A stretch of DNA of 22,458 nucleotides, taken from positions 1 to 22,458 of the IMG/VR virus record IMGVR_UViG_3300038714_000013. One strand, given 5' to 3'. The position numbers and the translations under genes were made by a program. Each line of letters starts with the position of its first letter. Within the stretch, counting starts at the first letter, position 1. This document shows, one piece after another, positions 1-19,451 of this stretch. This DNA comes from a virus. The notes under the pieces were generated by a model. The model searched no databases and was not told the DNA's origin. It saw only the letters and a program-made list of their open reading frames with translations.

Positions 1-1
1 T

Positions 2-250
2 ATTTACTCTGCAATGTCAGGTGATGCAACTGCAAGTGATGCAGGAGCATTAACAATAGCAAATGATGCAGTTGAAAGTGGTATGTTAAATGACAACATA
101 ATTAGTGGTCAAACAGAATTAGCATCAGGATTAGAAACAACAGATGAATTACTTGTAAGTGATGCAGGTACAATTAAAAGAATGGATGTAAGTGTTCTAA
201 CAGCAGTTACTGACGATAGTGCGACAGCGTTAGCTATCGCATTAGGATAA
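2..250 (+). CDS. Tail/fibre-type virion protein, C-terminal end (5' truncated by window)
   Basis: The frame is open to the first base of the window (it reads I-Y-S-A before the first Met at 14), so this is the tail end of a longer gene and the Met is probably internal. The visible 82 residues are rich in Ala, Ser, Thr, Asp and Gly with almost no aromatics. They contain the phrases 'LTIANDAVESGML' and 'TDELLVSDAGTIKRMD', which are familiar from the C-termini of tail-fibre or tail-associated proteins of marine podoviruses and cyanophages. The role is inferred as a virion surface or tail component because the next four large genes are also fibre-like. The stop codon is followed at once by an inverted repeat and a promoter, so this may be the last gene of an upstream transcript. 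The exact function cannot be told from this fragment. Confidence 0.7.
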   Translation: MYSAMSGDATASDAGALTIANDAVESGMLNDNIISGQTELASGLETTDELLVSDAGTIKRMDVSVLTAVTDDSATALAIALG

Positions 251-267
251 TGCTTGACAAACAAGCA
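251..267 (+). repeat. Inverted repeat overlapping the -35 box (possible weak terminator or operator)
   Basis: TGCTTG-ACAAA-CAAGCA is a perfect 6-bp stem with a 5-base loop, starting one base after the stop codon of the preceding gene and followed by ATTTTC. As RNA from the upstream gene it could act as a weak intrinsic terminator, although the T run is only four long. As DNA it overlaps the -35 box of the promoter at 254-282 and could be bound by a regulator. Both roles are inference; the repeat itself is plain in the sequence. Confidence 0.45.
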
Positions 268-282
268 ATTTTCGTGTATAAT
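254..282 (+). promoter_or_regulatory. Perfect-consensus sigma70-type promoter for the fibre block
   Basis: TTGACA (254-259), a 17-base spacer, then TATAAT (277-282): six of six matches in both boxes at ideal spacing. It sits in one of the only two intergenic gaps longer than about 40 bases on the late strand. The predicted start of transcription is near 289, giving a leader of about 15 bases that is mostly the Shine-Dalgarno region AAGGAAGGA (292-300) before the ATG at 304. Use by the host housekeeping sigma factor is the inference. Confidence 0.85.
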
Positions 283-303
283 TAGACAAACAAGGAAGGA
301 AAA

Positions 304-654
304 ATGGCGAATACATTTAAAGTAAAAACCAATGATGCAATGCCATCAAGTGCAGGTACTCCTTTAACACTTTACACTGTACCATCTAGTACAACAACTA
401 TTGTATTAGGTTTGATACTATGTAATGTAGATACATCACAAAGAACTGTTGATGTGCAACTTGTATCCGACACAAGTGATACTGAAACAAACGCAACTGT
501 AAAGTTATTGGAAAATGTTCCAATACCTGCAGGTTCAAGTTTGGAAGTATTATCAGGTGGTAAAGTTGTGTTACAAACTACAGACGTGTTAAAGATAGAC
601 TGTGACGTTGCAGCTAAGATTGATGCTACGCTTTCAATTATGGAGATAACATAA
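304..654 (+). CDS. Small beta-rich virion protein (hypothetical structural)
   Basis: This 116-residue protein starts at an ATG with a strong Shine-Dalgarno AAGGAAGGA a few bases upstream, directly behind the consensus promoter. Residues alternate in a beta-strand pattern, and phrases such as 'VPSSTTTIVLGLILCNVD' and 'VPIPAGSSLEVLSGGKVVLQ' resemble a widespread family of small beta-sandwich proteins found next to tail fibres in marine podo- and siphoviruses. No catalytic motif, signal peptide or membrane segment is visible. Its place as the first gene of the fibre block suggests a small tail, head-fibre or adaptor component made in large amounts. The family resemblance is from memory of marine phage genomes, and the function is not established. 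Confidence 0.75.
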   Translation: MANTFKVKTNDAMPSSAGTPLTLYTVPSSTTTIVLGLILCNVDTSQRTVDVQLVSDTSDTETNATVKLLENVPIPAGSSLEVLSGGKVVLQTTDVLKIDCDVAAKIDATLSIMEIT

Positions 655-655
655 T

Positions 656-1759
656 ATGGTTCATATAGGTAATACACCTGCAAGTAACTTTGCATCTGTA
701 ACTAAAGATACATTTAGTGGAGATGGAAGTACAACTGCTTTCACATTATCTAAAGCTGCGACAACAAATGGAGTTGCAGTCTTTGTAGAAAACGTAAGAC
801 AAGAACCTACAACAGCGTATGCAGTTAGTGGTACTACATTGACATTTACTGCTGCACCTGTAAGTGCTAGTGGAAATAATATCTATGTGTTACATCACAA
901 TTCACCTGCAAGTACAGCAACACATCCTGCGACACAGGCTTTAACTGCTACAAGTGGTACGTTTACAGGAGCATTTACTTCTGTTGGAATTGATGACAAT
1001 GCTGATGCTACAGCTATTACGATTGATAGTTCTGAAGATGTTACATTGTCTGGTAATTTATTAACTGGAGTAAATAAAAATATTGATGTAAGAGATGCAG
1101 ATGGTCATGTGTCTGGCAGATTAAGAAATGTTAGTGGTAGTAATAATGCTTTAACAATAGAAGCTGACCCTGATAATTCTGCTTCTGGTTCATATGTATC
1201 TTTTAAAGTAGATACATCAGAAAAAATGAAAGTTGATGATACTGGTGATGTAACAATTTCTGATGGCGATTTAGTTATAGGAACAAGTGGTCATGGGATA
1301 GATTTTAGTGCTACTGCTAATACAAGCACATCAGGTGCTAGTATGTCATCTGAACTTTTTGATTATTACGAAGAAGGTACATGGACACCTGCAGGGTATG
1401 GTGGCACTACAGCAGGTTCTTTTTCTGCAACAACTGTAGCAGGTGTTTACACAAGAATAGGAAGAATAGTATATTGTGAAGTTAGAATTAGTTCAGGTAG
1501 TTTAAGTGGTGCAGCAGGTACATTTCAGGTTAGTGGATTGCCTTTCACAATAGGTGGTACACAATATGGTTGTTCTGGTTCATTTGCATTTAATACTATA
1601 GATTTTGACCCATCAACTATTCCAGTAATTCAGCTAGGGTCAAGTACAAATTTTTATTTTCTTGTATCACAAGATGATACAGGTTGGTCAACTTTAACTG
1701 TTAGTAATTTTGATTCAACTTTTACACTTATTGGAACATTTATTTACCAAACTGGATAA
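656..1759 (+). CDS. Tail fibre protein with C-terminal YEEGTWTP module
   Basis: This is a 367-residue fibre-like protein. The N-terminal 90 residues ('TFSGDGSTTAFTLS', 'VFVENVRQEP') match a phage fibre N-terminal domain that likely attaches to the virion. The middle is a low-complexity, Ser/Thr/Gly/Asp-rich beta shaft ('DDNADATAITIDSSEDVTLSG'). The last 130 residues start with a 'GHGIDFSAT' phrase and YEEGTWTP at residues 238-245, followed by a beta-rich domain that is probably the exposed receptor-binding end. The same C-terminal arrangement recurs in the genes at 1771 and 4300. The ATG follows the previous stop by one base, so translation is probably coupled; a GGAG lies about a dozen bases upstream. 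The receptor is unknown. Confidence 0.8.
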   Translation: MVHIGNTPASNFASVTKDTFSGDGSTTAFTLSKAATTNGVAVFVENVRQEPTTAYAVSGTTLTFTAAPVSASGNNIYVLHHNSPASTATHPATQALTATSGTFTGAFTSVGIDDNADATAITIDSSEDVTLSGNLLTGVNKNIDVRDADGHVSGRLRNVSGSNNALTIEADPDNSASGSYVSFKVDTSEKMKVDDTGDVTISDGDLVIGTSGHGIDFSATANTSTSGASMSSELFDYYEEGTWTPAGYGGTTAGSFSATTVAGVYTRIGRIVYCEVRISSGSLSGAAGTFQVSGLPFTIGGTQYGCSGSFAFNTIDFDPSTIPVIQLGSSTNFYFLVSQDDTGWSTLTVSNFDSTFTLIGTFIYQTG

Positions 1760-1770
1760 AGGAATAATAT

Positions 1771-2979
1771 ATGCCATACATAGGAAAAACAACAGACGGA
1801 TTTGGAGTACGAAATAGGTTCGTATACTTAGCATCAAGTGGTGATACATCCGTAAGTGGAGCAGATGCCAATGGAGCAACACTGACATTTACAGATGGTG
1901 CATACGTTGACGTATATCTTAATGGTGTGTTGTTAAAACCAACAACAGACTATAACACAAGCACTGCTAACACGATAGCAGGTCTATCAGCACTTAATAC
2001 AAATGATGAAGTAACTGTGGTGGTCTATGATGTGTTTACTGTTGCTGACATGGTAAGTGCTACAAGTGGTGGTACGTTTAATGGTGCAGTTACGTTTGGT
2101 GCAGGTATTGAAGGTGGTGTTGTATTTAATGATGATTCTGCTGACGTAGATTTTAGAGTTGAGAGTAATGACCAAACTCATATGTTGTTTGTAGATGGTG
2201 GAATAAATCAAGTTGGTGTTGGAGTTGTACCTAATGATGGTTGGAATACTAATTTTCTTGGCATAGACATAAATAATCAAGGTGGCATACATCATTATAC
2301 AAGTGCTGATTTAACTGTAGAAAATAATGCGTATTTTGATAGTAGCAACGCTTGGAGATACAAAAGAGATGGGTATGCATCAAGATTAAATTTTATAAAT
2401 GCAAGTGGTAATGTAAAATTTTCAAGTGCTGCAAGTGGTTCAGCAGATGGTGCTATAAGTTTTCTTGACAACATAGAAATGGAACACTCTAGTGGCGATT
2501 TAAAAGTAACTAGAGGTGATATATTTTTTGCAGGTTCAGGTAAAGGTATCAATCTAGGTGTTACATCAAACACAGATAGCAACACATTAGACGATTATGA
2601 AGAAGGTACATGGACACCCACTTTTTTATCAGGGTCTTGGACTTACTCTTTTCAGCATGGAGTATATACAAAAATAGGCGATACTGTTGTAGTTTCTGCT
2701 ACGCTAGGTTGGTCAGGCACACCTAATGCAGGAAATACTTTAGGTGTAAATGTACCTTTTACAATTAAGAATGTTACTAACTATAGAGCGTTGGCAATAC
2801 TAGGATATATAGAGGGTCTTGATACACAAGATAAAATGCTTACTTTATCAGGTTCTGCAAATGCAGCATTTGCATATTTTTATAGACTTAATGACAATGC
2901 GGCTCCAAGTGCTTTAAATGATGGAAGTAGCACTGGTAGTAGTGGTGAAGTACAATTCACTTTTATTTTTAAGGTTTAA
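1771..2979 (+). CDS. Tail fibre protein with C-terminal YEEGTWTP module (second copy)
   Basis: This is a 402-residue fibre. The N-terminal 100 residues ('PYIGKTTDGFGVRNRFVYLA', 'VYLNGVLLKPTTDYN') form a domain common to marine phage tail fibres and presumed to dock on the tail or head. The shaft contains 'DDSADVDFRVESNDQTHMLF', a phrase repeated in many marine viral fibre proteins. The C-terminal part begins 'GKGINLGVTSN' and carries YEEGTWTP at residues 276-283, followed by about 120 beta-rich residues. It is paralogous to the preceding gene and to the short gene at 4300 in the C-terminal module, but not clearly in the N-terminus, which suggests module shuffling. AAAGGAATA lies upstream of the ATG. 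A receptor-binding role is inferred. Confidence 0.8.
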   Translation: MPYIGKTTDGFGVRNRFVYLASSGDTSVSGADANGATLTFTDGAYVDVYLNGVLLKPTTDYNTSTANTIAGLSALNTNDEVTVVVYDVFTVADMVSATSGGTFNGAVTFGAGIEGGVVFNDDSADVDFRVESNDQTHMLFVDGGINQVGVGVVPNDGWNTNFLGIDINNQGGIHHYTSADLTVENNAYFDSSNAWRYKRDGYASRLNFINASGNVKFSSAASGSADGAISFLDNIEMEHSSGDLKVTRGDIFFAGSGKGINLGVTSNTDSNTLDDYEEGTWTPTFLSGSWTYSFQHGVYTKIGDTVVVSATLGWSGTPNAGNTLGVNVPFTIKNVTNYRALAILGYIEGLDTQDKMLTLSGSANAAFAYFYRLNDNAAPSALNDGSSTGSSGEVQFTFIFKV

Positions 2980-2990
2980 AGGGGAAATAG

Positions 2991-4103
2991 ATGAGCAGAG
3001 CAAGAACATTCGCAGATTTAGCAACAGCATCTGAAGCAGGTAGTTTAACTAGTTCTAACATAATAATTAATGGTGATATGTCTGTTGCACAAAGAGGTAC
3101 AAGTTCTACTATTACGCAAATAAAGACAGTAGATAGATGGGGAGTTTCTTTTGGGGGGAGTTTAGGTGTAACTCAAACTCAACAATCACTTACAAGTGGT
3201 AGTCCATATGAATTAGGTTTTAATAATTTTATTAGAGCAGCTAATACATCAACATCAAGTAGCACAACTTCATATATTCAATTTTTTCAAAGAATAGAAG
3301 CACAACATATTGCAAACAGTGGTTGGAATTTTAAATCTTCAAGCAGTTTTATAACATTAAGTTTTTGGGCAAGGTCTAGTTTACAAGGAACATATTATGC
3401 ATTTGTAGTAACAGATGATGGCACAGATTATTATAGGTCAAAGGCTTTTGCTCTATCTGCTGATACTTGGACTAAAGTTACATTTACTATAGAGGGTAAT
3501 TCTAACTTAACTATAAATGACGATAATGGGATAGGTTTTACAGTAAATATTGTACCTCATTATGCCACTGGTTATACAGGTTCAAATGCAAATACAACAA
3601 GTTGGTATACTTTAGTTAGTAATGATTATATGCCAGACTTTGCACAAAGTTGGAGTGAATCTTCAGGTGCAACATTTGATGTTACAGGGGTGCAATTAGA
3701 ATTAGGACAAGTAGCTACATCTTATAAACATGAAAATTTTGCAGATAATTTAGCTAGATGCCAAAGGTATTATTTTAATATTACAGGAGATAACACGGAT
3801 TATGCAGGTTTAATGGGTTATGCAAATGGAACTAGTGACGTAAGATTTAGTGTAAAATTTCCTGTGCCTATGAGGGCAAATCCTACTTTTGCAGGAACTT
3901 CTACTGCTTGTAGAATGGATGCAGCAGACGATAGTAATGAATTTGACATTGATGAGTTAGCTATAGAAAGACCACACACAACAAGTTCTCCTTCTACTAT
4001 AAACTTAATTGAAAGTGCGGCAGATGGTATGACAGCAGGTCAAGGTGGGCAACTTGAATTTCGTGCTGATAGTGGGGAATTAGAATTTGATGCAGAGTTA
4101 TAG
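2991..4103 (+). CDS. Tail fibre/adhesin with carbohydrate-binding-like domain
   Basis: This is a 370-residue protein. Residues 1-37 include 'IIINGDMSVAQRGTSS', the start of a domain found in many phage tail proteins. The following region ('FQRIEA', 'LSFWARSS', 'WTKVTFTIEG') resembles the jelly-roll carbohydrate-binding modules of the CBM4/9 type. The phrase 'GVQLELGQVATSYKHENFAD' followed by 'LARCQRYYF' is the typical end of that module, and a further beta-rich domain follows to the C-terminus. It probably binds a surface glycan of the host. It lacks the YEEGTWTP motif of its neighbours, so the phage carries at least two different kinds of fibre tip. GGGGAAAT lies before the ATG as a ribosome binding site. 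The assignment as a virion fibre is firm, but the ligand is unknown. Confidence 0.8.
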   Translation: MSRARTFADLATASEAGSLTSSNIIINGDMSVAQRGTSSTITQIKTVDRWGVSFGGSLGVTQTQQSLTSGSPYELGFNNFIRAANTSTSSSTTSYIQFFQRIEAQHIANSGWNFKSSSSFITLSFWARSSLQGTYYAFVVTDDGTDYYRSKAFALSADTWTKVTFTIEGNSNLTINDDNGIGFTVNIVPHYATGYTGSNANTTSWYTLVSNDYMPDFAQSWSESSGATFDVTGVQLELGQVATSYKHENFADNLARCQRYYFNITGDNTDYAGLMGYANGTSDVRFSVKFPVPMRANPTFAGTSTACRMDAADDSNEFDIDELAIERPHTTSSPSTINLIESAADGMTAGQGGQLEFRADSGELEFDAEL

Positions 4104-4111
4104 GAGATTAT

Positions 4112-4300
4112 ATGATAAAAAAAATAAATATAACATCAGCTAAATATGTAAAAGATTCAACAGGTCAAAATTTGCAATCTCTTAAAGTTGTAATAGATGG
4201 TCAAAAATTATCTGTTCCAATAGATGAAGCTAACACACACTACGCTGAAATCAAACGACAAGTTGATGCAGGTGAACTTACAATAGAGGATGCAGACTAA
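4112..4300 (+). CDS. Small hypothetical protein in the fibre block
   Basis: This 62-residue protein is charged, with an N-terminal beta-like half ('KKINITSAKYV') and a C-terminal acidic helix ('YAEIKRQVDAGELTIEDAD'). It has an AGGAG ribosome binding site 6-7 bases upstream, and its stop overlaps the next start as TAATG. Small proteins of this kind often sit among marine phage fibre genes. A fibre chaperone or a small virion part would fit the place, but nothing in the sequence shows either. It is real by its position, spacing and coupling. Confidence 0.65.
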   Translation: MIKKINITSAKYVKDSTGQNLQSLKVVIDGQKLSVPIDEANTHYAEIKRQVDAGELTIEDAD

Positions 4301-4830
4301 TGGCAATATCAAAGATAGGAAGTAATTCAGTAAATCTAGCATCAGGACTTGATATAGCTGATGGTGACATAACAGTAGCAAGTGGTCATGGTATTAACTT
4401 TGCTGCTACTAGCGATGCAAGTGGTATGGCATCTGAATTATTAGACGACTATGAAGAAGGCACTTGGACACCTGCATGGACAGGGGGAATATCTTCTCCT
4501 ACATATAGTATACAACATGGTAGATATACTAAAACTGGAAACGTATGTACAGCTTATTTTTATTTAGATATATCAAATGGAACAGATGGTAGTGGTCATG
4601 CTGTAATAGGTGGATTACCTTTTACTTCTACAGTCACTATGTATTGGGTTGCAACAGGATACAATAACTCTAGTGATAATAATAATGACAATGTTATTGT
4701 AATATGTTTTCCGTCAACTACAAGTCTATATTTTTATTCACAAGGATTACAAGGTGTTTCTCAAATTCCGGGTAATAATCTTGGACATACTACTAGTCAG
4801 TTATGGCAAATAACTTATAGAACTGCATAA
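4300..4830 (+). CDS. Short tail fibre/tip protein with YEEGTWTP module (third copy)
   Basis: This 176-residue protein is almost only the C-terminal module of the two fibres upstream. A 35-residue N-terminus ('MAISKIGSNSVNLASGLDIA') leads straight into 'SGHGINFAATSDASGMASEL' and YEEGTWTP at residues 51-58, followed by about 118 beta-rich residues. The lead-in is closest to the copy in the gene at 656 ('SGHGIDFSATANTSTSGASM'). The TAATG overlap with the preceding small gene indicates coupled translation. It may be a separate short fibre, or a spare tip domain derived from a longer fibre by duplication and loss of the shaft. Confidence 0.75.
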   Translation: MAISKIGSNSVNLASGLDIADGDITVASGHGINFAATSDASGMASELLDDYEEGTWTPAWTGGISSPTYSIQHGRYTKTGNVCTAYFYLDISNGTDGSGHAVIGGLPFTSTVTMYWVATGYNNSSDNNNDNVIVICFPSTTSLYFYSQGLQGVSQIPGNNLGHTTSQLWQITYRTA

Positions 4831-4836
4831 AGGAAT

Positions 4837-4857
4837 ACTCTAGTGGATTGCTAGAGT
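4837..4857 (+). repeat. Intergenic hairpin between fibre block and next genes
   Basis: ACTCTAG-TGGATTG-CTAGAGT is a perfect 7-bp inverted repeat with a 7-base loop, in the 52-base gap between the short fibre gene and the gene at 4883. No T run follows on either strand, so it is not a classical intrinsic terminator. It could be an mRNA processing or stability element that sets the dosage of fibre versus downstream genes. The downstream gene has its own strong AAAGGAG site at 4870-4876. Confidence 0.5.
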
Positions 4858-4882
4858 TGGAAGCCTAGAAAGGAGAAAAAAT

Positions 4883-5200
4883 ATGGCACAAGGTGATATA
4901 ACCAAAGAAATAGAATACGATAAAATTGAAGTCGTAAACACATGGAACATACAAGTTCGTCAAGCAACAAAGATTATGGAAGAACAAGCAGATGGTTCTA
5001 AGAAAGAACTAACACGTTCTTTTCATCGTCATGTGTTAGCACCATTTCATTCTAATAAAGATGAAGATGGTAAGTGGACACATACTGCTACGGACATTAG
5101 TGGTGAAGATGCTTCTGTACAAGCTATTGCAAATGCAGCTTGGACTGATTCAGTTAAAACAGCTTATAAAACATTTACAGAAAGTCAGACAACACCATAA
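4883..5200 (+). CDS. Conserved hypothetical phage protein
   Basis: This 105-residue protein has a strong ribosome binding site (AAAGGAG, 7 bases before the ATG) after a hairpin-bearing gap. It is polar and soluble, with an N-terminal strand-rich part ('GDITKEIEYDKIEVVNTWNI') and a C-terminal helix that ends 'AWTDSVKTAYKTFTESQTTP'. Proteins that begin with a similar 'GDITK' phrase and contain an 'SFHRHV'-like stretch are common in marine podoviruses near tail genes and have no known function. The stop overlaps the next start as TAATG. A virion or assembly role is suggested only by its neighbours. Confidence 0.65.
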   Translation: MAQGDITKEIEYDKIEVVNTWNIQVRQATKIMEEQADGSKKELTRSFHRHVLAPFHSNKDEDGKWTHTATDISGEDASVQAIANAAWTDSVKTAYKTFTESQTTP

Positions 5201-5430
5201 TGGAAGTAAACCCAATATTATTTTGGAATGGACTACTAACACTCGTCATAGCACCTGCTATATGGGTGTTTCGTGGTATGTTTATGGAAGTAAAACGCTT
5301 GGATATACTCCTCAATAAAACACGAGAGGAGTATGCCAAACGTGATGATGTAAAAGAAGATATGCACACAGTAATGGATGCATTACAAAGACTAGAAGAT
5401 AAATTAGATAAGATATTAATAGGTAAATAA
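5200..5430 (+). CDS. Small membrane-anchored coiled-coil protein (holin-like candidate)
   Basis: This 76-residue protein has one predicted transmembrane segment at about residues 7-25 ('ILFWNGLLTLVIAPAIWVF'). A charged amphipathic helix with heptad character follows, from residue 30 to the end ('VKRLDILLNK', 'VMDALQRLEDKLDKILIGK'). A single membrane anchor plus a cytoplasmic or periplasmic coiled coil is an architecture seen in some small phage lysis or membrane proteins, and no other lysis gene is visible in the window. The segment is short and has no dual-start motif, so a holin role is only a candidate. An alternative is a scaffold at the membrane or a part of the ejection machinery, since the next genes are ejection-type proteins. 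The TAATG overlap couples it to the gene before. Confidence 0.6.
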   Translation: MEVNPILFWNGLLTLVIAPAIWVFRGMFMEVKRLDILLNKTREEYAKRDDVKEDMHTVMDALQRLEDKLDKILIGK

Positions 5431-5432
5431 TT

Positions 5433-7733
5433 ATGGCAAAGTTTAAGGCATTTAAGCCACAAGCCCTAGAACGTATAGCTAAAACAATGGGTTATACAGG
5501 GGATATGGGTGGCTTTCAACAGTATCTAGATAGTAATGTTTCATTAAAAGAAAGAATGAAACAGCTAGAAGATTCTGCTATGGAGATGTCTAAGAATGGC
5601 ACTGTTAAACAAACTCAAAAGCAATCTGAAGATACAGTAGGTGCATTTGTACCACCACCTACACAGACATTTGACCCTGTTCAAATGCAACAAGGTGGTA
5701 TGTTAGGTGCGTTAGCGTCAGGTGTGATACAAGGTGCTGCACAAACTTTAGGTGTACCAGCAGAAGCATCTCAAAGAAAACATACAGGGATTACATACGA
5801 TAAAAATAAATTATACCAATCTTCACCTACTGCTGGAACACAAGAATATGCAGCAAATATGCCACCTGAAGGGTATCGTTTTGCTTTCAAAGGTGATGGT
5901 ACTAGAGTTACAATTCCTGAAGCTGATTATATGAAACAATTTGGAGATTCTTTTAAATCTACTAATAGAAATACAGGTGCAAGAACAAGAGGTGTAGTTA
6001 ATTTACCCACTTATGGTGTAGGCACAGCACAACCTCTACCTCAACAATTTATTCCTCAAGCACAATATCAAGAAGGACAACAAATACAAGACTTGATGGC
6101 TAAACAAGCACAAGCACCTGCATTGCCTATGGGTGGTACAATAGTACCTCAAGGTACATTACAGGAAACAGGGCAGATGGTTAATCCTGCTACAGGACAA
6201 TTAACAGGTGCAATACAAACACCTATAGCACAGGCTACTACAGCACAAACACAAATACCTGTAACAACTCAAGCTGCACAGATAACCCCTACAACAACAC
6301 AACAGAATGTAGCACAGCTACAAGCACAGGCACAACAAACAGCACCACCTGTTACAACACAAGCACAGACTGCAGGTGGTACATCTGTATCTAATCTTAA
6401 TGCTGCACAAGGAACTGCTATTGAAATGCAGAACCCTGTGCAAAGACAGATACAGCAAGGTGAACTTATATCACCTGCTGCAAATGCACAGACAGCATCA
6501 CAGTTTACTGAACAGATAGAGTCTGCCACAGCTACACCAACAGAACAAGCTACTGTAGCAGGACAACTTGCACAGCTAACATCTAACTTTGATGCAACTA
6601 ACCCACCTGCATGGGCTGCAGGAGCATTAAGAGGTGTACAAGCTATAATGCAACAGAGAGGTATGGGTGCATCTAGTATAGCAGGACAGGCAATGGTTCA
6701 AGCTGCACTAGAATCAGCTTTACCCATAGCATCAGCAGATGCACAGACACAAGCACAGTTTGAAGCACAGAATTTAAGTAACAGACAGCAAAGAGCCATG
6801 TTAGCCGCACAGCAACGTGCTACATTTTTGGGCATAGAGTTTGACCAAACATTTCAGTCTAGAGTTCAAAACTCTGCTCGTATAGGTGATATAGCTAACA
6901 TGAATTTTACTGCTGAACAGCAAGTAGCATTAGAGAACTCTCGTAATGCAAACACAGTTAATTTAAATAATTTATCTAATAGACAGGCAGTTGTATTAGC
7001 TGAAGCATCTGCTTTAGCAAACATGGACATGGCTAATTTAAGTAATAGACAACAAGCTGCAGTTATGAATGCACAAAACTTTATGCAGGTTGACATGGCT
7101 AACTTAACTAATAGACAGCAAACTGAACTGTTTAATGCACAAGCTAGACAGCAATCAATGTTTACAGACCAAGCTGCAATCAATGCATCTGCACAGTTTA
7201 ATGCCACATCTCAGAATCAGGTAGACCAATTCTTTTCACAGTTACAATCACAGGTAGGACAGTTTAATGCATCACAGGCAAATGCACAATCACAATATAA
7301 TGCAGGTCAAGTAAATACAATTGAAAGATTTAACGCTGAATTAAATAATCAACGTGAGCAGTTTAATGCACAGAATAGATTGGTTATTGACCAAGCAAAT
7401 GCACAGTGGAGAAGACAGATTGCTACGGCAGATACTCTTGCAATTAATCGTGCAAACGAATTAAATGCAACTGCATTATTAGGATTATCTAATACAGCTT
7501 ACAATAATCTATGGCAACACTATGGTGATGTTATGGAATGGGCTTGGACATCATCTGAAAATAATGCAGAAAGAGTGTTACAAATGGCTATGGCAGAGTT
7601 AGATGCTAAAGTTAGAACTGACTTAAAGAACTTAGATGCTGAAATCGGTGAAGGTAAAGCACTTGGTGGTCTTGTATCTGACTTATTCTTTAAGCCAATA
7701 GCAGGTAGTTTGATAGGGGGAATATTTGGATAA
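5433..7733 (+). CDS. Internal virion/ejection-type protein with 11/22-residue repeats
   Basis: This is a 766-residue protein with no catalytic motif. Residues 1-60 are a charged helix, and 90-115 are Gly/Ala-rich ('GALASGVIQGAAQTLG'). About 190-400 is a Gln/Ala/Thr/Pro-rich linker, and 447-666 is a long run of 11/22-residue helical repeats marked by NLSNRQQ and QFNA phrases (the repeat entry gives positions). The C-terminus ends in a Gly-rich hydrophobic stretch ('FFKPIAGSLIGGIFG') that could insert in a membrane. Long helical proteins of this composition sit with the internal core or DNA-ejection proteins of marine podoviruses. The size, order and membrane-like ends support an ejection role, but homology to T7 gp14-16 is not visible by eye. 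The stop overlaps the next start as TAATG. Confidence 0.65.
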   Translation: MAKFKAFKPQALERIAKTMGYTGDMGGFQQYLDSNVSLKERMKQLEDSAMEMSKNGTVKQTQKQSEDTVGAFVPPPTQTFDPVQMQQGGMLGALASGVIQGAAQTLGVPAEASQRKHTGITYDKNKLYQSSPTAGTQEYAANMPPEGYRFAFKGDGTRVTIPEADYMKQFGDSFKSTNRNTGARTRGVVNLPTYGVGTAQPLPQQFIPQAQYQEGQQIQDLMAKQAQAPALPMGGTIVPQGTLQETGQMVNPATGQLTGAIQTPIAQATTAQTQIPVTTQAAQITPTTTQQNVAQLQAQAQQTAPPVTTQAQTAGGTSVSNLNAAQGTAIEMQNPVQRQIQQGELISPAANAQTASQFTEQIESATATPTEQATVAGQLAQLTSNFDATNPPAWAAGALRGVQAIMQQRGMGASSIAGQAMVQAALESALPIASADAQTQAQFEAQNLSNRQQRAMLAAQQRATFLGIEFDQTFQSRVQNSARIGDIANMNFTAEQQVALENSRNANTVNLNNLSNRQAVVLAEASALANMDMANLSNRQQAAVMNAQNFMQVDMANLTNRQQTELFNAQARQQSMFTDQAAINASAQFNATSQNQVDQFFSQLQSQVGQFNASQANAQSQYNAGQVNTIERFNAELNNQREQFNAQNRLVIDQANAQWRRQIATADTLAINRANELNATALLGLSNTAYNNLWQHYGDVMEWAWTSSENNAERVLQMAMAELDAKVRTDLKNLDAEIGEGKALGGLVSDLFFKPIAGSLIGGIFG
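6771..7430 (+). repeat. Protein-coding 22-residue (2 x 11) repeats, about ten units
   Basis: Within the 766-residue protein, NLSNRQQ-type phrases begin at residues 447, 513, 535 and 557. The spacings are 66, 22 and 22 residues, so the period is 66 bases. A second landmark, F or M followed by NA, falls at residues 545, 567, 589, 611, 633 and 644, with spacings of 22, 22, 22, 22 and 11. The units are diverged at DNA level. An 11-residue period gives a nearly straight amphipathic helix (hendecad), as in apolipoprotein-like or coiled-coil repeats. Confidence 0.8.
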
Positions 7734-7954
7734 TGAGTTATTTTAACGAACCAGCTAGATTAGCGTTATTAAATATGCAAAAGAATATGAGTATGGATGT
7801 AGATGAAAAGCCTGTAGAAAATAAAGGTTTATTATCTAGAACTAATCCTATGTCTATGAAGTCTAGCAATGGAAGTAAAACTGAGATAGATAAAGTTATT
7901 GAATACACTCGTAAAATAAAAGCAGAAATGGGAAAATATAAAGATGGCATTTAG
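7733..7954 (+). CDS. Small hypothetical protein in the ejection-protein block
   Basis: This 73-residue polar protein is rich in Met and Lys. It has an N-terminal helix ('FNEPARLALLNMQKNM'), a disordered middle ('NPMSMKSSNGSK') and a C-terminal helix ('IDKVIEYTRKIKAEMGKYK'). It starts in a TAATG overlap with the 766-residue protein and overlaps the next gene by 11 bases, so it belongs to the same transcript and is probably translated by coupling. No family is recognised. A small virion-internal or assembly protein is the best guess from context alone. Confidence 0.6.
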   Translation: MSYFNEPARLALLNMQKNMSMDVDEKPVENKGLLSRTNPMSMKSSNGSKTEIDKVIEYTRKIKAEMGKYKDGI

Positions 7955-8441
7955 ACAAGAACCTGCATTTGATGCACCTATTCCGGGTCAGTCACTAACG
8001 TCTGAACCTAAAAATAGACCTTGGAGAAACCCACCTCAACTTGATACAGTTGAAGATGCAATGGAGTATTATCTTCCTAAACTATCTTCTCCTGAAATAG
8101 CACCTAGATTACTAGATGTAATAGAGAGAGGTATACCTTTAACATCACTTGCTGAAACAATTGTAACAGGTGGTGCTATGCAAGGTATTCATAGTATTGA
8201 TGTAGGTATTTTAATTAATCCTATTCTTGTTGAGTTTATGAAAGGCATGGCTGAAATAGCTGAGGTAGAATATAATTTAGGTGATAAAGACAAAGACGAA
8301 GAGCCTGACCCACAATTATTACAACTTGCAATGAAAGAATTAAAAGAGTCAGAAGATGTAATTGAACAGGCGAGTACAGATACACAAGAAGAAATGGTAG
8401 AAGAAGAACCTCAAGGGTTAATGGCTAGAAGGAGTATGTAA
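7944..8441 (+). CDS. Conserved hypothetical marine-phage protein
   Basis: This is a 165-residue protein. The N-terminus 'PIPGQSLTSEPKNRPWRNPP' and the following 'DAMEYYLPKL', 'GGAMQGIHSIDVGILINPIL' and 'VEFMKGMAEIA' match a family I recall from marine podo- and myovirus structural regions, with no assigned function. The C-terminal 50 residues are strongly acidic and probably disordered ('KDKDEEPDPQ', 'EEMVEEEPQG'). The start overlaps the previous gene by 11 bases and the stop overlaps the next start as TAATG. A virion or assembly role is inferred from its place among the internal-protein genes. Confidence 0.65.
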   Translation: MAFRQEPAFDAPIPGQSLTSEPKNRPWRNPPQLDTVEDAMEYYLPKLSSPEIAPRLLDVIERGIPLTSLAETIVTGGAMQGIHSIDVGILINPILVEFMKGMAEIAEVEYNLGDKDKDEEPDPQLLQLAMKELKESEDVIEQASTDTQEEMVEEEPQGLMARRSM

Positions 8442-10009
8442 TGGGATTTAGATTGTCGTCAGCGATAGCAGGATTTGCAGAAAGAACATCAGAAAACTTA
8501 ACAGCTTTGCAAGATAAAGCTGATGAGATTACTAAGACTGCCGCAGAAAGATATGCTAATGAAGCACTACAGGTACGTAAAGAAAGAATAAAATCTGTAC
8601 GTGAATATACTCGTGCTGCAAAAGAATTACAACGAATGGGATTAGATAATGCACAGATAGAAGTTGCTTTATCAGCAGGTGTTGGTGGTGTAGAAAATGT
8701 TAAAAGTTCTTTAGCTAACTTAGCGACAAGAGAAAAATTAAAAGACCCATCATTTGAAGGTTTTAATACATTAGAAGAAAGAAAAGGTGCTATTAATAGT
8801 TTATTTACAGGATTACCTGAAGATGCAACAGGTAGAGATATAGCAGAACAAGCTAAAATATTTGCAAGTTTTGAATCTCCAATGGTAGCACCTGATGCTA
8901 AAGCACTTGGAGAGCAGGTAGCTGCATCAACTAAAACATTGTTTGCTCCTAAAGGTATTGACCCTGAATATACAACTGCACAATTTACAGCACAGGCTGA
9001 AGCTGCAGGTGGTAAAGCACCTGTAGATGTAGAGGGAGACCTTGGAATAGCAGGTGCTACAATGCAAACTGTGGCTGACCCTGTGGCATTTATTAATGCT
9101 TTACAAGTACAACAAAACCTTGATAGAGGTGGTATAGAAATTGAATCATTAAAAATGGATAATAAGTTTAAACAATTTAGTAATCCTTTATTACTAAAAG
9201 AATTAAGACAAAAATTAGAAATAGGTGAAATACAAAAAGGTAACTTAGAAGTTGAAGGCTTGTTAAATAATGCTAAACTAGCTAGTGAACGTATTGACTT
9301 ACATTTAAAACGTAAGTTTGGAACTAAAAAATATGAAGCAGAGTTAGAAAATCTTGCAGCTCAGACAGCTAGAACAGTTGCTGAAACAGGAAGACCTACT
9401 AGTTATGAAGAGTTAATTTCAGGTATGCAATGGGAACTTTCACAAATAGACGCAGAGAAAGACCCAGAAAAAGTTGCACTTCTTAAAACTAAAATTAATG
9501 AAGCAAATTTAAACTATACTGCATTTGAACTTGTTGGTGAAGATGGTCAACCTGATTTAACAGGATTAGGTTCTATGCAAAAACTACTAGGTCAGATTGT
9601 TACAAATAAATCTGCAGGTAAATTTGTAATGGGAACTGACTTTTTAATATCTGAAACAGGTGATATTATTTGGAAGGGCGAGAAAGAAGGACAAGATACA
9701 TTCAATGACATAAAAAGAGAAGCGTCTAAAGATTTTGTAGATGCACTTGCACCTAACGGACAGTTTGTTAATGAAGGTGCTAGGATAGCAGTAACAGGAT
9801 TAGCAGGAAATATGTATAAATTAATGTATCCAACAGAAACTGAATTATTATCTATGTTAAATACTGAGTTTATAGACGCTGAATCAGATTTTAATACAGG
9901 TAAATCTAGCCTTGATGATATTACAAATTTTGTGTTGCAAAAATTAAAAGTTAGAAATCCTGATGCTACTTTAGAGGATGCTAAAAGGCTAGTTAGTGAA
10001 GCAAGGTAG
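8441..10009 (+). CDS. Large helical virion-internal protein (hypothetical)
   Basis: This 522-residue protein is rich in Ala, Glu, Lys and Leu and predicted to be mostly helical. The first 65 residues form an amphipathic coiled-coil-like helix ('ENLTALQDKADEITKTAAER', 'VRKERIKSVREYTRAAKEL'). Further helices lie around residues 230-320 and 465-520, and no catalytic or membrane motif is seen. Its position between the repeat protein and the 1131-residue protein, in one coupled transcript, makes an internal core or DNA-ejection protein likely. A link to a named family is not visible. It starts in a TAATG overlap and stops five bases before the next ATG. Confidence 0.6.
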   Translation: MGFRLSSAIAGFAERTSENLTALQDKADEITKTAAERYANEALQVRKERIKSVREYTRAAKELQRMGLDNAQIEVALSAGVGGVENVKSSLANLATREKLKDPSFEGFNTLEERKGAINSLFTGLPEDATGRDIAEQAKIFASFESPMVAPDAKALGEQVAASTKTLFAPKGIDPEYTTAQFTAQAEAAGGKAPVDVEGDLGIAGATMQTVADPVAFINALQVQQNLDRGGIEIESLKMDNKFKQFSNPLLLKELRQKLEIGEIQKGNLEVEGLLNNAKLASERIDLHLKRKFGTKKYEAELENLAAQTARTVAETGRPTSYEELISGMQWELSQIDAEKDPEKVALLKTKINEANLNYTAFELVGEDGQPDLTGLGSMQKLLGQIVTNKSAGKFVMGTDFLISETGDIIWKGEKEGQDTFNDIKREASKDFVDALAPNGQFVNEGARIAVTGLAGNMYKLMYPTETELLSMLNTEFIDAESDFNTGKSSLDDITNFVLQKLKVRNPDATLEDAKRLVSEAR

Positions 10010-10014
10010 TTAAA

Positions 10015-13000
10015 ATGTCTAGTTTTTCAATATCAGACTCAATGAAACTATCAAAAGGCTCTGATGCAAATTTAAGTAAATCTTTTGCCGCATCTAAAAA
10101 TTCATTGCGTGATGCTATGAATATAGGTAAAACTGTTAAAGAACCTGAACCAATAGAAGATGATGAAGTTGAGTTTACTCCTTATGAAGTTTCTGAAGAT
10201 GAACGGATTACACTTGATGAGTTTGCTAACAATGACTCACTTATACAGGACATTAGAGACTATAGCATAGATAGATATGGTATAGAAGATGGTGGTCAAA
10301 GAAAAGGAGAGTCAAACAGACAATACCTTAATAGATTTTTAAGAGAAGTACACAGGTTTGAAAACAATAGTGTATATCTATCCTCTATGATAGACTATCT
10401 TAGAAATGCTGATGATGACCAACGAAGAACTTTTGGTAGAGCATACGAAGCATACTTACAAACACCCATGTTCTATGAAGAAGGTGGAGCAGGTATGAGA
10501 GCCGTAGGTGAAGTTGTTGCAGCAGGTATAAGTGACCCAATAAATTTATTTACAGCAGGTTTTGGTAGATTATTTGCGTCTACAGCAGGTAAACAAGCTG
10601 CCCAAAAAGGTATTACAAAATTTCTTACAAGTCCAACAACTAAAGCTGTGGCTGCAGGTGCTGTTACAGAAGGAACTTTAGGTGTTGCAGAAGATATAGG
10701 ACTGCAAGACATTGAAAGAAAAGGTAAAGTATTTGGTAAAGAAGATATTAGTCTGACCCAAGCTGCTATTGTTGGTGGAGCATCTTCTGTATTAGGTGGT
10801 GCACTAGCAGGTGTTGCACAAAAAGGTGTACCTAACCCTCTTAGATTATTAAAAAGAAAAAAGAAAGCATCACCTGATGAACTAATACAGGCAAAAGAAA
10901 CAGCTAAAGCAAATGAAATAGAAACATTTGACCCTGTTAATGGTCCTGTTAAATCTAAAACTGAAATAGAACTTGAGGGTAGAAGAGCACTCGACAAACA
11001 AGGAAAACCTACACCTGTATCTGAGATGCAGGTTAGAAAAGAACTATCAAGACAGATGACAAGGGTAGTTACAAATCTTGTTAAAGAACAAAAAGAGTTG
11101 ATAGATGCAGGTCAACTAGACTTATCTGATAACTTAGACTTTGCTGATAAAAAATATCTAGTAAAAGTTGGTGACAAAGTATTAGAAAAGAAGGATAAGG
11201 TAGGAGATTTTGTACAAAGAATTTTAGATGACCCTGATAAAATAGATTCAGATGCTTTATCTAGGGCATTAAAGAAAGAAAATATATCTGCTGAAACATT
11301 TACAGAGTTTCTACAGAGCACAGAAAACTATGCATCAATGCAAAAATTAACGCTATCTGATGCAGCTAAAACTATGAATGCATATTCACAGTTAGGTAAA
11401 TTAAAAAAGAAAATAGTAGAAGTATCACCTGAGTTTAAGAAACGTGCCGATGAATTATTTGGTGCAGATGAAGAAATGATGGATGGTTTAGGAAGATTTA
11501 ATAAATTCTTCCGTAACTTAGATAGAAATAGAAGAGCATTAATGGTGTCTCAAATAGCCACCACAGTTCGTAATGCTGCAACAGGTTTATCTGTAGTTAC
11601 TTTTCAAACAGGTGCTGACATGATGGAAGCTGCACTTTACTATGGTGGTAAAAGTATAAAAGCTACACTAACAGGTAACGCTAGTTTATCAGGATTTAAA
11701 AGAGGTCTCGTAGATGCATCAAGAGATGCGTTTGGAACTCTTGCATATTTATCTGAGCAAGGTTTAAGTAAAGAATTAGCTGACATAACCTTGCATAATA
11801 ACCCACGATTAAACAATACTTTATTTAGAACATTACAAGAAGTAGGAGATGACTCAGATGGATTGTGGTGGGTAAGTAAAAAACTTAATTATCTAAACTT
11901 ACAACAAGATAGTTTTTTTAGAAGAGCATTTTATACTGCATCAATAGATAAAAGTTTAAGAAGAACAGGTACATCTCTTGCTGATGTTGTAAGAGAGAAT
12001 AAAGATGTACCTCTATCTATACTTAAAAAAGGTGTTGATGATGCACTTAAAGGTACGTTTGCACACATGCCTAAGAAGGGTGCGGCACATCACTTTATAA
12101 AGTTTGTTGAAACAATTCCTGCTACTAATCCAATAACTGCTATACCATCAGCATTTATAGGTACAGGTGCATTCCCATTTGCTAGATTTATGGCAAATGC
12201 TATGGCATTTCAATTAAAATATAGCCCTTTAAATGGTGCTTACGCAGTATTAAAGACTGCTAAAAATGGTAAGAAATTACTAACAGGAACACTAGACCAA
12301 AGAGAAGCTATGGACATTACGGAAAGAATGTCACAGGGTTTAGTGGGTAGTGCAGCCTTATATGCGGCATATCAATACAGGGCAAACAATCAAGATACAG
12401 AATGGTTCAATGCTAAAGATGCCGAAGGTAGAACATTTGACCTAAGACCTTTCTTTCCTGCTGCACCATATCTTGTTGTTGCAGATATATTATATAAGTC
12501 AGCTATATTTGATGAGGATAGAGAAAGCACACTAAGTAATACAGATGCAAGAACTTTAATACAAGGTTTTACAGGTGCTCAGTTTAGAGCAGGTGCAGCG
12601 TCAACAACAATAGATAGATTTTTTGAGATTATGGGTCAAGAACCTGATATATCTACAGTGCAATCTGAAAGATTAGCTGAGATGGTAGGTGAATATCTTG
12701 GAGAAATAACAGGTGGGTTTGTAACAACTGCTAGAATGTTTAAAGATGTGATGGCACAGTTTAATGAAGAGTCATCTATCGTAAGAGACTCTAGACAAGT
12801 AACAGGTGAGGGTGCAGTTGAAAGAGGATTAAGTGCATTTAATAATGCTGTAACTAAAAACATACCATTTTTTGAAGAGCAACTACCTGAGTTTCAAGAC
12901 CCAACAAAACCTGAAACACTTAGAAAACAATCTCCATTGTTAGGTTTATTTGGTATGAGATTTAGAGAAAGACCTACTGAAGTAGAAAGTGAATTAACAA

Positions 13001-13410
13001 GTTTAGGTTTATTGGATTACAAGATTGTGCCAAGCACAGGAGATAAGACAGCAGATTCTTACATTAAAAAACATCTAGGTCAGCTAACAGATACGTTCTT
13101 ACCTAACTTAATAAATAGTGATAGATATGCAAACTATGGAAACTCTAAAAAGAAAATAGCTGTCAATGATTTATTAAAAACATTAAGAGCAACAGCTAAA
13201 ACATTAGCTAAAGTTGATGCAGAGAAAGATAAAGGAGATAAAACATACACTCCTTTTGATAGAGCACAATGGTTGAAAGTTCCTAAATTACAGCGTGATG
13301 TAGCAAATGAATACTACAAAGCAAATAATGGTGGAACTTCCATTGAAGAAGCAGGAGAGTATAGACTAGGTTCTGCCTTAGCTAGAACTCTTGCTAAAGG
13401 TGTAAAGTAA
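10015..13410 (+). CDS. Very large internal virion/DNA-ejection-type protein
   Basis: This 1131-residue protein is the largest in the window and the last of the late operon. The N-terminal 60 residues are Ser/Lys-rich and disordered. Residues about 158-190 and 210-270 hold Gly/Ala-rich hydrophobic stretches ('GEVVAAGISDPINLFTAGFG', 'AIVGGASSVLGGALAGVAQK'). Residues 503-560 carry 'RRALMVSQIATTVRNAATG', a phrase found in very large phage virion and polyvalent proteins, and about 701-735 holds a second hydrophobic part ('FIGTGAFPFARFMANAMAF'). Size, place and membrane-active segments recall the large ejection proteins of podoviruses (T7 gp16 in role). No lytic transglycosylase motif is seen, so any peptidoglycan hydrolase must lie elsewhere. 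AAGGTAG precedes the ATG. Confidence 0.65.
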   Translation: MSSFSISDSMKLSKGSDANLSKSFAASKNSLRDAMNIGKTVKEPEPIEDDEVEFTPYEVSEDERITLDEFANNDSLIQDIRDYSIDRYGIEDGGQRKGESNRQYLNRFLREVHRFENNSVYLSSMIDYLRNADDDQRRTFGRAYEAYLQTPMFYEEGGAGMRAVGEVVAAGISDPINLFTAGFGRLFASTAGKQAAQKGITKFLTSPTTKAVAAGAVTEGTLGVAEDIGLQDIERKGKVFGKEDISLTQAAIVGGASSVLGGALAGVAQKGVPNPLRLLKRKKKASPDELIQAKETAKANEIETFDPVNGPVKSKTEIELEGRRALDKQGKPTPVSEMQVRKELSRQMTRVVTNLVKEQKELIDAGQLDLSDNLDFADKKYLVKVGDKVLEKKDKVGDFVQRILDDPDKIDSDALSRALKKENISAETFTEFLQSTENYASMQKLTLSDAAKTMNAYSQLGKLKKKIVEVSPEFKKRADELFGADEEMMDGLGRFNKFFRNLDRNRRALMVSQIATTVRNAATGLSVVTFQTGADMMEAALYYGGKSIKATLTGNASLSGFKRGLVDASRDAFGTLAYLSEQGLSKELADITLHNNPRLNNTLFRTLQEVGDDSDGLWWVSKKLNYLNLQQDSFFRRAFYTASIDKSLRRTGTSLADVVRENKDVPLSILKKGVDDALKGTFAHMPKKGAAHHFIKFVETIPATNPITAIPSAFIGTGAFPFARFMANAMAFQLKYSPLNGAYAVLKTAKNGKKLLTGTLDQREAMDITERMSQGLVGSAALYAAYQYRANNQDTEWFNAKDAEGRTFDLRPFFPAAPYLVVADILYKSAIFDEDRESTLSNTDARTLIQGFTGAQFRAGAASTTIDRFFEIMGQEPDISTVQSERLAEMVGEYLGEITGGFVTTARMFKDVMAQFNEESSIVRDSRQVTGEGAVERGLSAFNNAVTKNIPFFEEQLPEFQDPTKPETLRKQSPLLGLFGMRFRERPTEVESELTSLGLLDYKIVPSTGDKTADSYIKKHLGQLTDTFLPNLINSDRYANYGNSKKKIAVNDLLKTLRATAKTLAKVDAEKDKGDKTYTPFDRAQWLKVPKLQRDVANEYYKANNGGTSIEEAGEYRLGSALARTLAKGVK

Positions 13411-13743
13411 TTATCTAGTATCTCCACTACCCCCTAACACTCCTCGTGTTTTTCTTGACTGTAACTTATCTAAATTATCTTCCATAATCTTACCTAAATT
13501 AATATCAAAATAATCAGCTAACATAGCACAGTACCATAGTACGTCACCTATTTCCCCACCAACGTCTACATTTAATTTTTTGTCACGTATTATTTTTTTA
13601 ACTTTATTAGCAACTTCACCTGCTTCACCTGCCAACCCTAGAGATAAATACTCTAGGGCTTTGTCAGGGGGAAATATAGCAGTTGTCTTTGCTTGTTCTT
13701 GGTAAGCGTTGGCAGTTATCATACTTTTATTTTTATTATCCAT
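13411..13743 (-). CDS. mazG: MazG-like nucleoside triphosphate pyrophosphohydrolase
   Basis: The protein hydrolyses (d)NTPs or alarmone-type nucleotides to monophosphates. In marine phages it is thought to tune host metabolism or clean up the dNTP pool. The all-helical MazG metal site is visible as 'GLAGEAGEVANKV' (ExxE) and 'GGEIGDVLWYCA' (ExxD), and the C-terminal 'TRGVLGGSGDTR' is typical of this subfamily. I start it at 13743 (110 residues) because GAGGAAGAGG lies about 10 bases upstream and the start then overlaps the previous stop by 8 bases. An upstream ATG at 13773 would add 10 residues but has only a weak site. It is the last gene of the minus-strand operon and ends exactly where the late operon ends on the other strand. 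Confidence 0.9.
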   Translation of the reverse strand: MDNKNKSMITANAYQEQAKTTAIFPPDKALEYLSLGLAGEAGEVANKVKKIIRDKKLNVDVGGEIGDVLWYCAMLADYFDINLGKIMEDNLDKLQSRKTRGVLGGSGDTR

Positions 13744-13972
13744 AAACTTTTTTACCTCTTCCTCTAGATTCATATTTCTTTACCCTTTTTAAATTTACAA
13801 AGTAAGCGAAGTTAAATCCTCTCTCCCACTCACGATGTTGCATAGTGTTTAGAGGATAAGGACTTCTAATCCTGCCCTTTCTAAACGATTGTATGCCCTT
13901 CTCGTATTGTATACGTAAAGGTGCATCAAATTTAGATAGCTTATTACCTCTGTGGTCATATCTATTTATCAT
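13736..13972 (-). CDS. Ribosome-modulation-factor-like small basic protein
   Basis: This is a 78-residue, strongly basic protein. The central part has the spacing of the RMF fold: 'YEKGIQSFRKG' (two helix-capping Gly), then 'RSPYPLNTMQHREWERGFNF' (N/S-PY, a Trp and a Gly before the second helix). In bacteria RMF binds the 30S subunit and drives inactive 100S dimers, and RMF-like domains turn up in small phage proteins. The tail 'LKRVKKYESRGRGKKVYG' is basic and fits RNA binding. GGAGAAAGG lies upstream of the ATG. It overlaps mazG and the preceding gene. The match is by pattern only, so binding to ribosomes is an inference; a generic nucleic-acid-binding protein is the alternative. Confidence 0.65.
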   Translation of the reverse strand: MINRYDHRGNKLSKFDAPLRIQYEKGIQSFRKGRIRSPYPLNTMQHREWERGFNFAYFVNLKRVKKYESRGRGKKVYG

Positions 13973-14219
13973 TCTTACCTTTCTCCTTTTTTTGTTGAGG
14001 TTGCTCTTCAGGTTTCATAAAAAACTTTTGTAACATTTCTAGCTTATCGTGGTAGTCAGCAATCTTGCCTAACTCTTCTTCGATAACAGCTTGTATGTCC
14101 TGATGTGGTGGGTCTCCAATACCTACAGGGTTAGTTAGCAATACTTCCATATTTGCTATTGACCTGTTTATCATACCCATGTAATATGTTCTTGCAGAAC
14201 CTAATAATATACTTCTCAT
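13962..14219 (-). CDS. Small helical conserved hypothetical protein
   Basis: This is an 85-residue protein. Its middle, 'NMEVLLTNPVGIGDPPHQDI' followed by 'EEELGKIADYHDKLEMLQKF', resembles a small phage protein often found near ribonucleotide reductase or helicase genes, function unknown. The C-terminus is a charged, disordered Lys/Glu tail. An AAAGGAG site lies a few bases before the ATG, and it starts 13 bases after the reductase stop. The 11-base overlap with the RMF-like gene suggests coupled translation. No catalytic residues stand out. Confidence 0.65.
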   Translation of the reverse strand: MRSILLGSARTYYMGMINRSIANMEVLLTNPVGIGDPPHQDIQAVIEEELGKIADYHDKLEMLQKFFMKPEEQPQQKKEKGKNDK

Positions 14220-14232
14220 AATATTCTCCTTT

Positions 14233-16203: not shown

Positions 16204-16372
16204 CTTTTATCTCCTGTGTTACTCTTATATTTTTAATCTTAACTCCATCTATATCGTGTATATACTCACGCATAGCATCTTGAAACTCTTCTGTGACATC
16301 TCCATCTGATGGCATCATATATTCATCAGGGTCAATGTCTAGGCTAATAAACATTTTAACTTGTATTCGCAT
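16196..16372 (-). CDS. 58-residue small phage protein, unassigned
   Basis: This short gene fills the only gap in the minus-strand operon, between the DUF3310 gene and the reductase. Its stop (TAA at 16196-16198) overlaps the reductase start (ATGAATAA), and its ATG lies inside the end of the previous gene with a weak AGG 8 bases upstream. The product is acidic and ordered-looking: 'MFISLDIDPDEYMMPSDGD' then 'FQDAMREYIHDIDGVKIKNI'. Small proteins with a similar 'LDIDP.EY.P..G' and '.YDIDGV.IKNI' pattern occur in marine podoviruses with no known function. An internal Met (residue 7) would avoid the overlap but has no ribosome site. Confidence 0.7.
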   Translation of the reverse strand: MRIQVKMFISLDIDPDEYMMPSDGDVTEEFQDAMREYIHDIDGVKIKNIRVTQEIKDE

Positions 16373-16652
16373 TTGTAATACCTATTAACCTACTCAAATA
16401 CCATTGTGCTTTCTTTAAATCTTCAACACCATTCTTATATCTATATCTCCAAAGATATTTAATTATATTACCTTGTAAGTAATATTCATATCCATCACCT
16501 GTTGCAGCTTCGATAGCATCAATACACTCTATACCACGTTGATTGTAATGTGGTGGATGATTAACCATATCTTTTTTTGTCTTCACCTTTTTTGTTTCTT
16601 TTATAGTCTCACCCTTTTCAAATTCTATTAGTTCTTTTATTGTTGCATTCAT
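16356..16652 (-). CDS. DUF3310 (SaV-like) protein
   Basis: This is a 98-residue protein. After a Lys-rich N-terminal 28 residues it has the full DUF3310 pattern: 'VNHPPHYNQRGIECIDAIEA', then 'YLQGNIIKYLWRYRYKNGVE' and 'DLKKAQWYLSRLI'. The family is small, very common in phages of both Gram types, and usually sits among nucleotide or replication genes. Its biochemistry is not known (it is sometimes listed as nucleotide-kinase-like without proof). The ribosome site AAAGGGGAG lies upstream. Its start overlaps the preceding stop as TAATG. Here it lies directly upstream of the reductase cluster, which suits a link with nucleotide supply. Confidence 0.9.
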   Translation of the reverse strand: MNATIKELIEFEKGETIKETKKVKTKKDMVNHPPHYNQRGIECIDAIEAATGDGYEYYLQGNIIKYLWRYRYKNGVEDLKKAQWYLSRLIGITNANTS

Positions 16653-17661: not shown

Positions 17662-17677
17662 AAATTACTCCTTTCTT

Positions 17678-19419: not shown

Positions 19420-19451
19420 AATTATATGCTCCTTTCTCGTTTGAATGTCTA

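Follow-up and report, generated by a model that had tools for sequence, protein, structure and literature searches.

A predicted facultative sigma70 promoter between a tail-fibre gene and a virion structural gene of HMO-2011-type marine phages

Phage T7 has a phage promoter before tail-fibre gene 17, and morons are promoter-gene-terminator cassettes found in phage operons. The site that we describe here resembles the internal late promoters of T7-like phages in placing an extra promoter at a virion gene, with overlapping late transcripts as the expected outcome; the T7-like promoters use the phage's own RNA polymerase (RNAP), whereas the boxes of our site are of the host sigma70 type. Like a moron, it gives a late-region gene its own promoter and varies between relatives. 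Unlike a moron, it has no terminator behind the gene and varies without the gene. We rejected a moron with a terminator because there is no room for one, as the next open reading frame starts at 656 after a stop at 654.

In the portions of the two reports available, LUZ100 is described as using host promoters early and, at the capsid gene, a promoter that is phage-specific (PMC10134795), and Skadi-1 as lacking an RNAP and having four sigma70 promoters near DNA replication and manipulation genes (PMC10504331). Our phage resembles Skadi-1 in being marine, in having sigma70 sites of the host type, and possibly in lacking an RNAP, but the Skadi-1 sites lie near replication genes, whereas ours heads virion genes and its distribution was tested over hundreds of relatives. 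HMO-2011-type phages are abundant in the sea, and as far as literature searches show, their transcription is undescribed. A term search of the available part of a paper on these phages returned neither 'promoter' nor 'RNA polymerase' (PMC9038755); the available part of a study of pelagiphage transcriptomes covers HTVC022P and HTVC027P and does not contain 'promoter' (PMC12753301), and a third source, as far as available, concerns a T4-like methylophage (PMC9004378). Our searches, confined to papers outside subscription, found no description of the promoter reported here. We regard it as a new and well-conserved example of something already known, the internal host-type late promoter, in which the all-or-none, allele-independent distribution is unusual.

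The site and its neighbourhood in the window

The window, the whole stretch that we analysed, comprises 22,458 bases of an IMG/VR virus record (35.6% GC), and this contig is 99% coding. Rightward genes (1-13410) encode the end of a fibre, the protein that we call MANTFK, fibre-like proteins, and large virion proteins. Leftward genes (13411-22457) encode MazG, ribonucleotide reductase, an endonuclease, a Cas4-like exonuclease, PolA, and a DnaB-like helicase of the replication module, and these early genes, from 13411 on, are convergent with the virion block. The window PolA is 62.6-62.8% identical to the HMO-2011 and CRP-345 enzymes over its length (62.6% for HMO-2011), and the order of modules (helicase, PolA, endonuclease, ribonucleotide reductase, and MazG convergent with large virion proteins and a fibre block) matches that of HMO-2011 and CRP-345. 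Because of this PolA identity and matching module order, we assign the window to an HMO-2011-type phage. Of two motifs that mark the type, the window translation has one exactly (CQKCDGKG) and the other as CPTCNALG, with A for G. The features of the junction are as follows, all on the plus strand.

2-250, plus: 3' end of a tail-fibre gene (..DSATALAIALG-stop), from the list of open reading frames; it enters from the left edge of the window
251-267, plus: 6-bp inverted repeat (arms 251-256 and 262-267), probably incidental and not conserved in relatives
254-259, plus: -35 box TTGACA, conserved in relatives, the spacer less so
260-276, plus: 17-nt spacer AACAAGCAATTTTCGTG, from the sequence
277-282, plus: -10 box TATAAT, invariant in 25 distinct homology-sampled junctions with 17-nt spacers
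288-290, plus: predicted transcription start, an A, 6-8 nt past the -10 box
293-300, plus: ribosome-binding site (Shine-Dalgarno) AGGAAGGA, from the sequence, within a leader of ~15 nt
304-654, plus: MANTFK gene, 116 aa, marine-phage virion structural protein, from the reading frame, homology, and a predicted beta sandwich
656-13410, plus: co-directional tail-fibre-like genes and genes for large virion proteins, from reading frames and families; transcription from the promoter might extend to them

The original prediction placed a full match to both sigma70 boxes just behind a stop codon and just ahead of the next gene, and both statements held. TTGACA and TATAAT are separated by 17 nt, within the 16-18 nt of the sigma70 class, and lie in the 53-nt gap between the TAA of the fibre frame, which ends at 250, and the start codon at 304. 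At spacings of 15-19 nt, neither strand of the window has another full match, and any full match occurred in just 3 of 100 dinucleotide shuffles of the window. Among 54 promoter-like sites at positions 1-20000 it is the only one to score 12/12, and in the map of reading frames no other site of at least 11/12 sits entirely outside coding sequence. Sigma70 promoters generally initiate 6-8 nt after the -10 box. A perfect match to the sigma70 consensus does not by itself make a promoter the strongest in vivo.

Synteny with HMO-2011 gp43 and HTVC104P gp73 identifies the upstream gene as a fibre gene, and its C-terminus, ALAIALG, is common to most relatives. Several phages annotate MANTFK as a virion structural protein. 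An AlphaFold2 model of it is a confident beta sandwich (pLDDT 94.7), and proteins of other phages that are predicted to be virion structural proteins match this fold (E values of 5.8e-9 and up); against the PDB, the fold search matched beta sandwiches only weakly, at E values never below 1e-3, and a profile search of PDB sequences gave no match.

Two further features of the window deserve mention. A 13-nt direct repeat (GACAAACAAGCAA at 256-268 and GACAAACAAGGAA at 285-297, 29 nt apart) spans the promoter; recombination between its copies would delete the -10 box, and the repeat is already broken in L004, a close relative. Three HMO-2011-type genomes (window, 19452-19480, minus strand; G002, 7252-7280; CRP-345 (L382), 8359) carry TTGACA-N17-TATAAC at the polA 3' end, ahead of the early gene that comes next; this may be another fixed host promoter.

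Distribution of the promoter among relatives

We sampled fibre-end/MANTFK junctions by four homology searches with MANTFK proteins, which were blind to the upstream DNA. The searches found 586, 570, 328, and 524 relatives, and the best 80 loci of each search were taken; after removal of 3 short and 60 duplicate junctions from sets A-C and of 40 duplicates from the fourth set, 217 distinct junctions were left (55 + 64 + 58 + 40). The distribution was all-or-none. In 67 of the 217 junctions, at least 40 nt separate the fibre stop from the next start codon, and every one of these held a sigma70 promoter scoring at least 10/12 (53 at 12/12, 8 at 11/12, and 6 at 10/12); among the 150 shorter gaps, 149 scored below 10/12 and one scored 10/12. 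When the 34 long-gap junctions of sets A-C were shuffled at constant composition, the best score reached 10 or more in 3.8% of cases and 12 in none. Across 25 distinct junctions, which fall into 8 spacer clusters, the -10 box was 100% conserved and the -35 box 96-100%, whereas spacer columns ranged from 40 to 100%, most of them from 40 to 88%, a pattern of boxes held under selection while the spacer drifts. Another type of promoter, TTGACT-N16-TATAAT with a 6-bp repeat (ATTGAC/GTCAAT) over its -35 box, is found at the fibre/MANTFK junctions of L290 and L292.

Pattern scans of IMG/VR with the boxes placed ahead of ATGGCNAAYAC gave at least 119 sites, compared with none in the same scan with reversed hexamers as a scrambled-box control. 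We re-read 118 of the matches listed: a MANTFK relative is encoded at 87 of them, where 41 different spacers occur, and blastp did not identify MANTFK at the other 31, in at least one case (L129) since the locus is cut short. In ~21 of the 118, including L093, L107, L108, L115, and L123, the perfect promoter lies ahead of an exonuclease-like 'MANT(D/H)..MIDLETL..' protein of other phages. A scan for the MAQDFE subfamily, the kind present in HMO-2011 and HTVC104P, gave at least 120 sites with 60 distinct spacers, some of them shared; among the matches listed, 118 resemble HMO-2011 gp42, and contig ends truncate the remaining two. Genome contigs yielded one match, in a Clostridia MAG contig.

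Cultured phages also have the promoter. In HMO-2011, which infects SAR116, the side tail fibre gene gp43 and gp42 are 58 nt apart, and TTGACA-N17-TATAAT lies between them; in HTVC104P, which infects SAR11, a perfect promoter lies within the 47 nt that separate gp73 from gp72. As in the window, the perfect boxes stand between a fibre gene and a MANTFK homologue; unlike in the window, the spacer is a different one and there is no 6-bp repeat, and the downstream proteins are just 35% (HMO-2011) and 28% (HTVC104P) identical to the window protein. These were the 2 of 11 scanned HMO-2011-type isolates with the promoter at this junction. HTVC115P and CRP-9 have gaps of 10 nt, and HTVC033P has one of 18 nt without a promoter; in CRP-345, a 49-nt gap before a putative MANTFK counterpart has no promoter (best score 8/12). 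Gaps of 9-27 nt separate the genes in the pelagiphages HTVC106P, HTVC026P, HTVC010P, HTVC034P, HTVC203P, and Lederberg, which have MANTFK homologues.

Retention of the boxes by close relatives, which the original prediction had named as a check, was found in part. The nearest relative (L004/G001, 96% nucleotide identity) keeps both boxes exactly, and L002 and L003, with the same downstream protein, lack them, so the promoter is facultative rather than universal. The MANTFK proteins of L002 and L003 are identical to that of the window but stand behind another fibre end, across a 10-nt gap. Most MANTFK relatives are without the promoter, which is therefore not essential for MANTFK, and each of 33 promoter-bearing proteins, the window's included, has a promoter-less counterpart at 88.7-100% identity. 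Conversely, the exact spacer of the window precedes MANTFK proteins of down to 55% identity, and another spacer is shared by MANTFK proteins that are only 46% identical. Promoter and MANTFK allele are thus decoupled. In Mantel tests on 64 distinct junctions, spacer distance correlated more closely with the last 60 residues of the fibre (r = 0.625) than with MANTFK (r = 0.273), and some pairs are alike on both flanks yet differ in the promoter (L306/L303, L278/L230, and L236/L241). By these comparisons, the promoter behaves as a separable unit of ~50 nt, inherited mostly with the upstream fibre side and less with the allele of MANTFK. When marine phages exchange fibres, regulatory DNA travels along with proteins, and these natural paired alleles with and without a promoter could serve to measure how the promoter affects fibre dosage or host range.

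PolA, as a marker of the HMO-2011 type, was present, among records of at least 30 kb, in 4 of the 5 with the promoter and in 3 of the 17 without it (Fisher P = 0.021), in a comparison of selected records in which two of the four promoter-bearing ones (G003 and G083) look near-identical; this is only a hint of a link between PolA and the promoter. Two other candidate markers were uninformative. The P22-type coat family PF11651 gave 0 of 50, though a coat gene is present by sequence in several of these records, and the last virion protein, which is too divergent, gave 6 of 50.

Host polymerase and competing readings

Our best reading, which we consider probable, is that the site is a facultative sigma70 promoter for the host RNAP, inside the late operon, that drives MANTFK and the co-directional genes behind it. 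Searches with PF00940 found no RNAP in two sets of promoter-bearing records (0 of 16 and 0 of 50, two records being shared), many of them fragments of 4-12 kb, and the 50-record search was positive in no genome, controls included. An RNAP was found with PF00940 in G017, a record without the promoter, and we set a T7-like phage promoter aside as unlikely on these two counts. Because no T7-like RNAP was found, the consensus site would be read by the host enzyme directly. The corresponding part of the original prediction, that the host polymerase reads the fibre genes, agrees with a strong host-type promoter heading the fibre block and occurring at the same place in relatives; its further suggestion of a repressor or terminator fared otherwise, as described below.

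We infer promoter activity, timing, the host sigma factor, and the benefit as follows. Host RNAP with sigma70 would bind at 254-282, and a second late transcript would begin ~15 nt before MANTFK, on top of readthrough from upstream. Just 1 nt separates MANTFK from the gene that follows (654/656), too tight a junction for a terminator, so the transcript should run on past MANTFK, continuing through the co-directional virion genes up to 13411. MANTFK, fibre-like proteins, and large virion proteins could then be made in quantity without a phage RNAP or activator. Standing against this reading are the nine isolates without a promoter at the junction and the long, promoter-less gap of CRP-345.

Because a bare consensus sigma70 promoter needs no phage factor, it would be active from the start of infection, and the site might serve mainly as an early promoter that supplies MANTFK and fibre products in an initial burst (e.g., for superinfection exclusion or as a pre-made stock), with late expression left to readthrough. 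We think this unlikely, as every downstream neighbour is a virion gene and no terminator confines the transcript to MANTFK. The junction might instead be a recombination border, a short stretch at which fibre ends and MANTFK alleles are swapped, with promoter activity incidental. Identical spacers before MANTFK proteins of only 46-59% identity, near-identical MANTFK proteins with and without the promoter, and the 111 of 259 pairs that differ by two or fewer spacer positions and yet have MANTFK identities below 65% would all fit. A homology border would keep contiguous sequence, however, and what is conserved is two boxes and their spacing, not the spacer or flanks; moreover, there are many distinct spacers (41 in the MANTFK scan and 60, some shared, in the MAQDFE scan), and the promoter can differ when both flanks are alike, as in L306/L303. 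The border reading is improbable to us on these grounds. Chance matching in AT-rich phage DNA could produce a single such site, as the occasional window shuffle with a match attests, but we give it a negligible probability; as an account of the family, it is refuted by the all-or-none pattern over 217 junctions and the empty scrambled-box scan.

A 6-bp inverted repeat across the -35 box was reported in the original prediction, and it does exist (TGCTTG/CAAGCA). Its proposed role, gating fibre transcription as a repressor site over the -35 box or as a weak terminator permitting readthrough, was not borne out, and this reading seems to us very improbable. In its favour are the overlap with the -35 box and an excess of arms of at least 6 bp around that box (4 of 49 distinct contexts versus 1.35 expected from shuffles; P = 0.02, uncorrected and with kinship ignored). 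The arms differ in sequence, however, and are 5 bp or shorter in the other 45 contexts; TTGACAA already has the symmetry TTG-A-CAA, making short chance arms more likely; and coat promoters of these phages have no such repeat. Folding is only slightly better than in shuffles (z = -1.69), and most promoter-bearing relatives have no real T run after the repeat. Such repeats are common in the window, since it contains 17 terminator-like sites as against 8.7 in shuffles. With the repeat absent from most promoter-bearing relatives and its fold weak, we rejected it as an operator or terminator, and it is probably incidental.

Predicted coat-gene promoters and a structured RNA leader

A second promoter, TTGACA-N16-TATAAC, lies 229-258 nt before the start codon of the coat gene in seven genomes. 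Outside the window, HMO-2011-type phages also have a structured RNA leader of ~200 nt before the major coat gene, and the fibre promoter lies 5.6-7.2 kb past this leader wherever both were seen. Leaders were located at the following positions, among others.

L380 (HMO-2011), 32590-32385, minus: coat leader
L206, 1783-1996: coat leader
L208, 15569-15773, minus: coat leader
L213, 11849-12068: coat leader
L216, 6692-6895, minus: coat leader

A covariance model built from 6 coat leaders found 18 matches in 84 sources, 13 of them behind a TTGACA-N16-TATAAC promoter. In 16 distinct leader rows, 24 of 30 pairs had changed on both sides, as in 0 of 500 shuffles, the counted alignment having been fitted to the model in a way that favours structure. 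RNAalifold predicted no pairs for 12 coat leaders and 30 pairs for 6 closer ones, and an Rfam search of the HMO-2011 leader region (401 bases) gave no match near the gathering score. The leader is possibly a new cis-regulatory RNA.

These elements suggest a wider scheme, which we put forward tentatively, as a possibility that we hold with less than even confidence. Fixed host sigma70 promoters would form a relay for late expression, without any activator encoded by the phage, at the coat gene (TTGACA-N16-TATAAC plus leader) and then at the fibre block, where the promoter would act as a plug-in dosage element. At the conserved junction of fibre end and MANTFK, the fibre promoter would come and go as a unit of ~50 nt, with re-tuning as fibre modules pass between phage lineages and hosts, and internal promoters would sustain expression of the distal late genes with no need for a phage polymerase. 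The scheme offers a testable plan for how a polymerase-less phage might serve a late operon longer than 30 kb. More perfect TTGACA-N17-TATAAT sites occur on the late (minus) strand of HTVC115P (L388; 36267, 32927, and 861) and HTVC104P (L387; 1577); the site at 32927 precedes the portal gene and those at 861 and 1577 precede an Hsp20 gene, making them candidate relay promoters.
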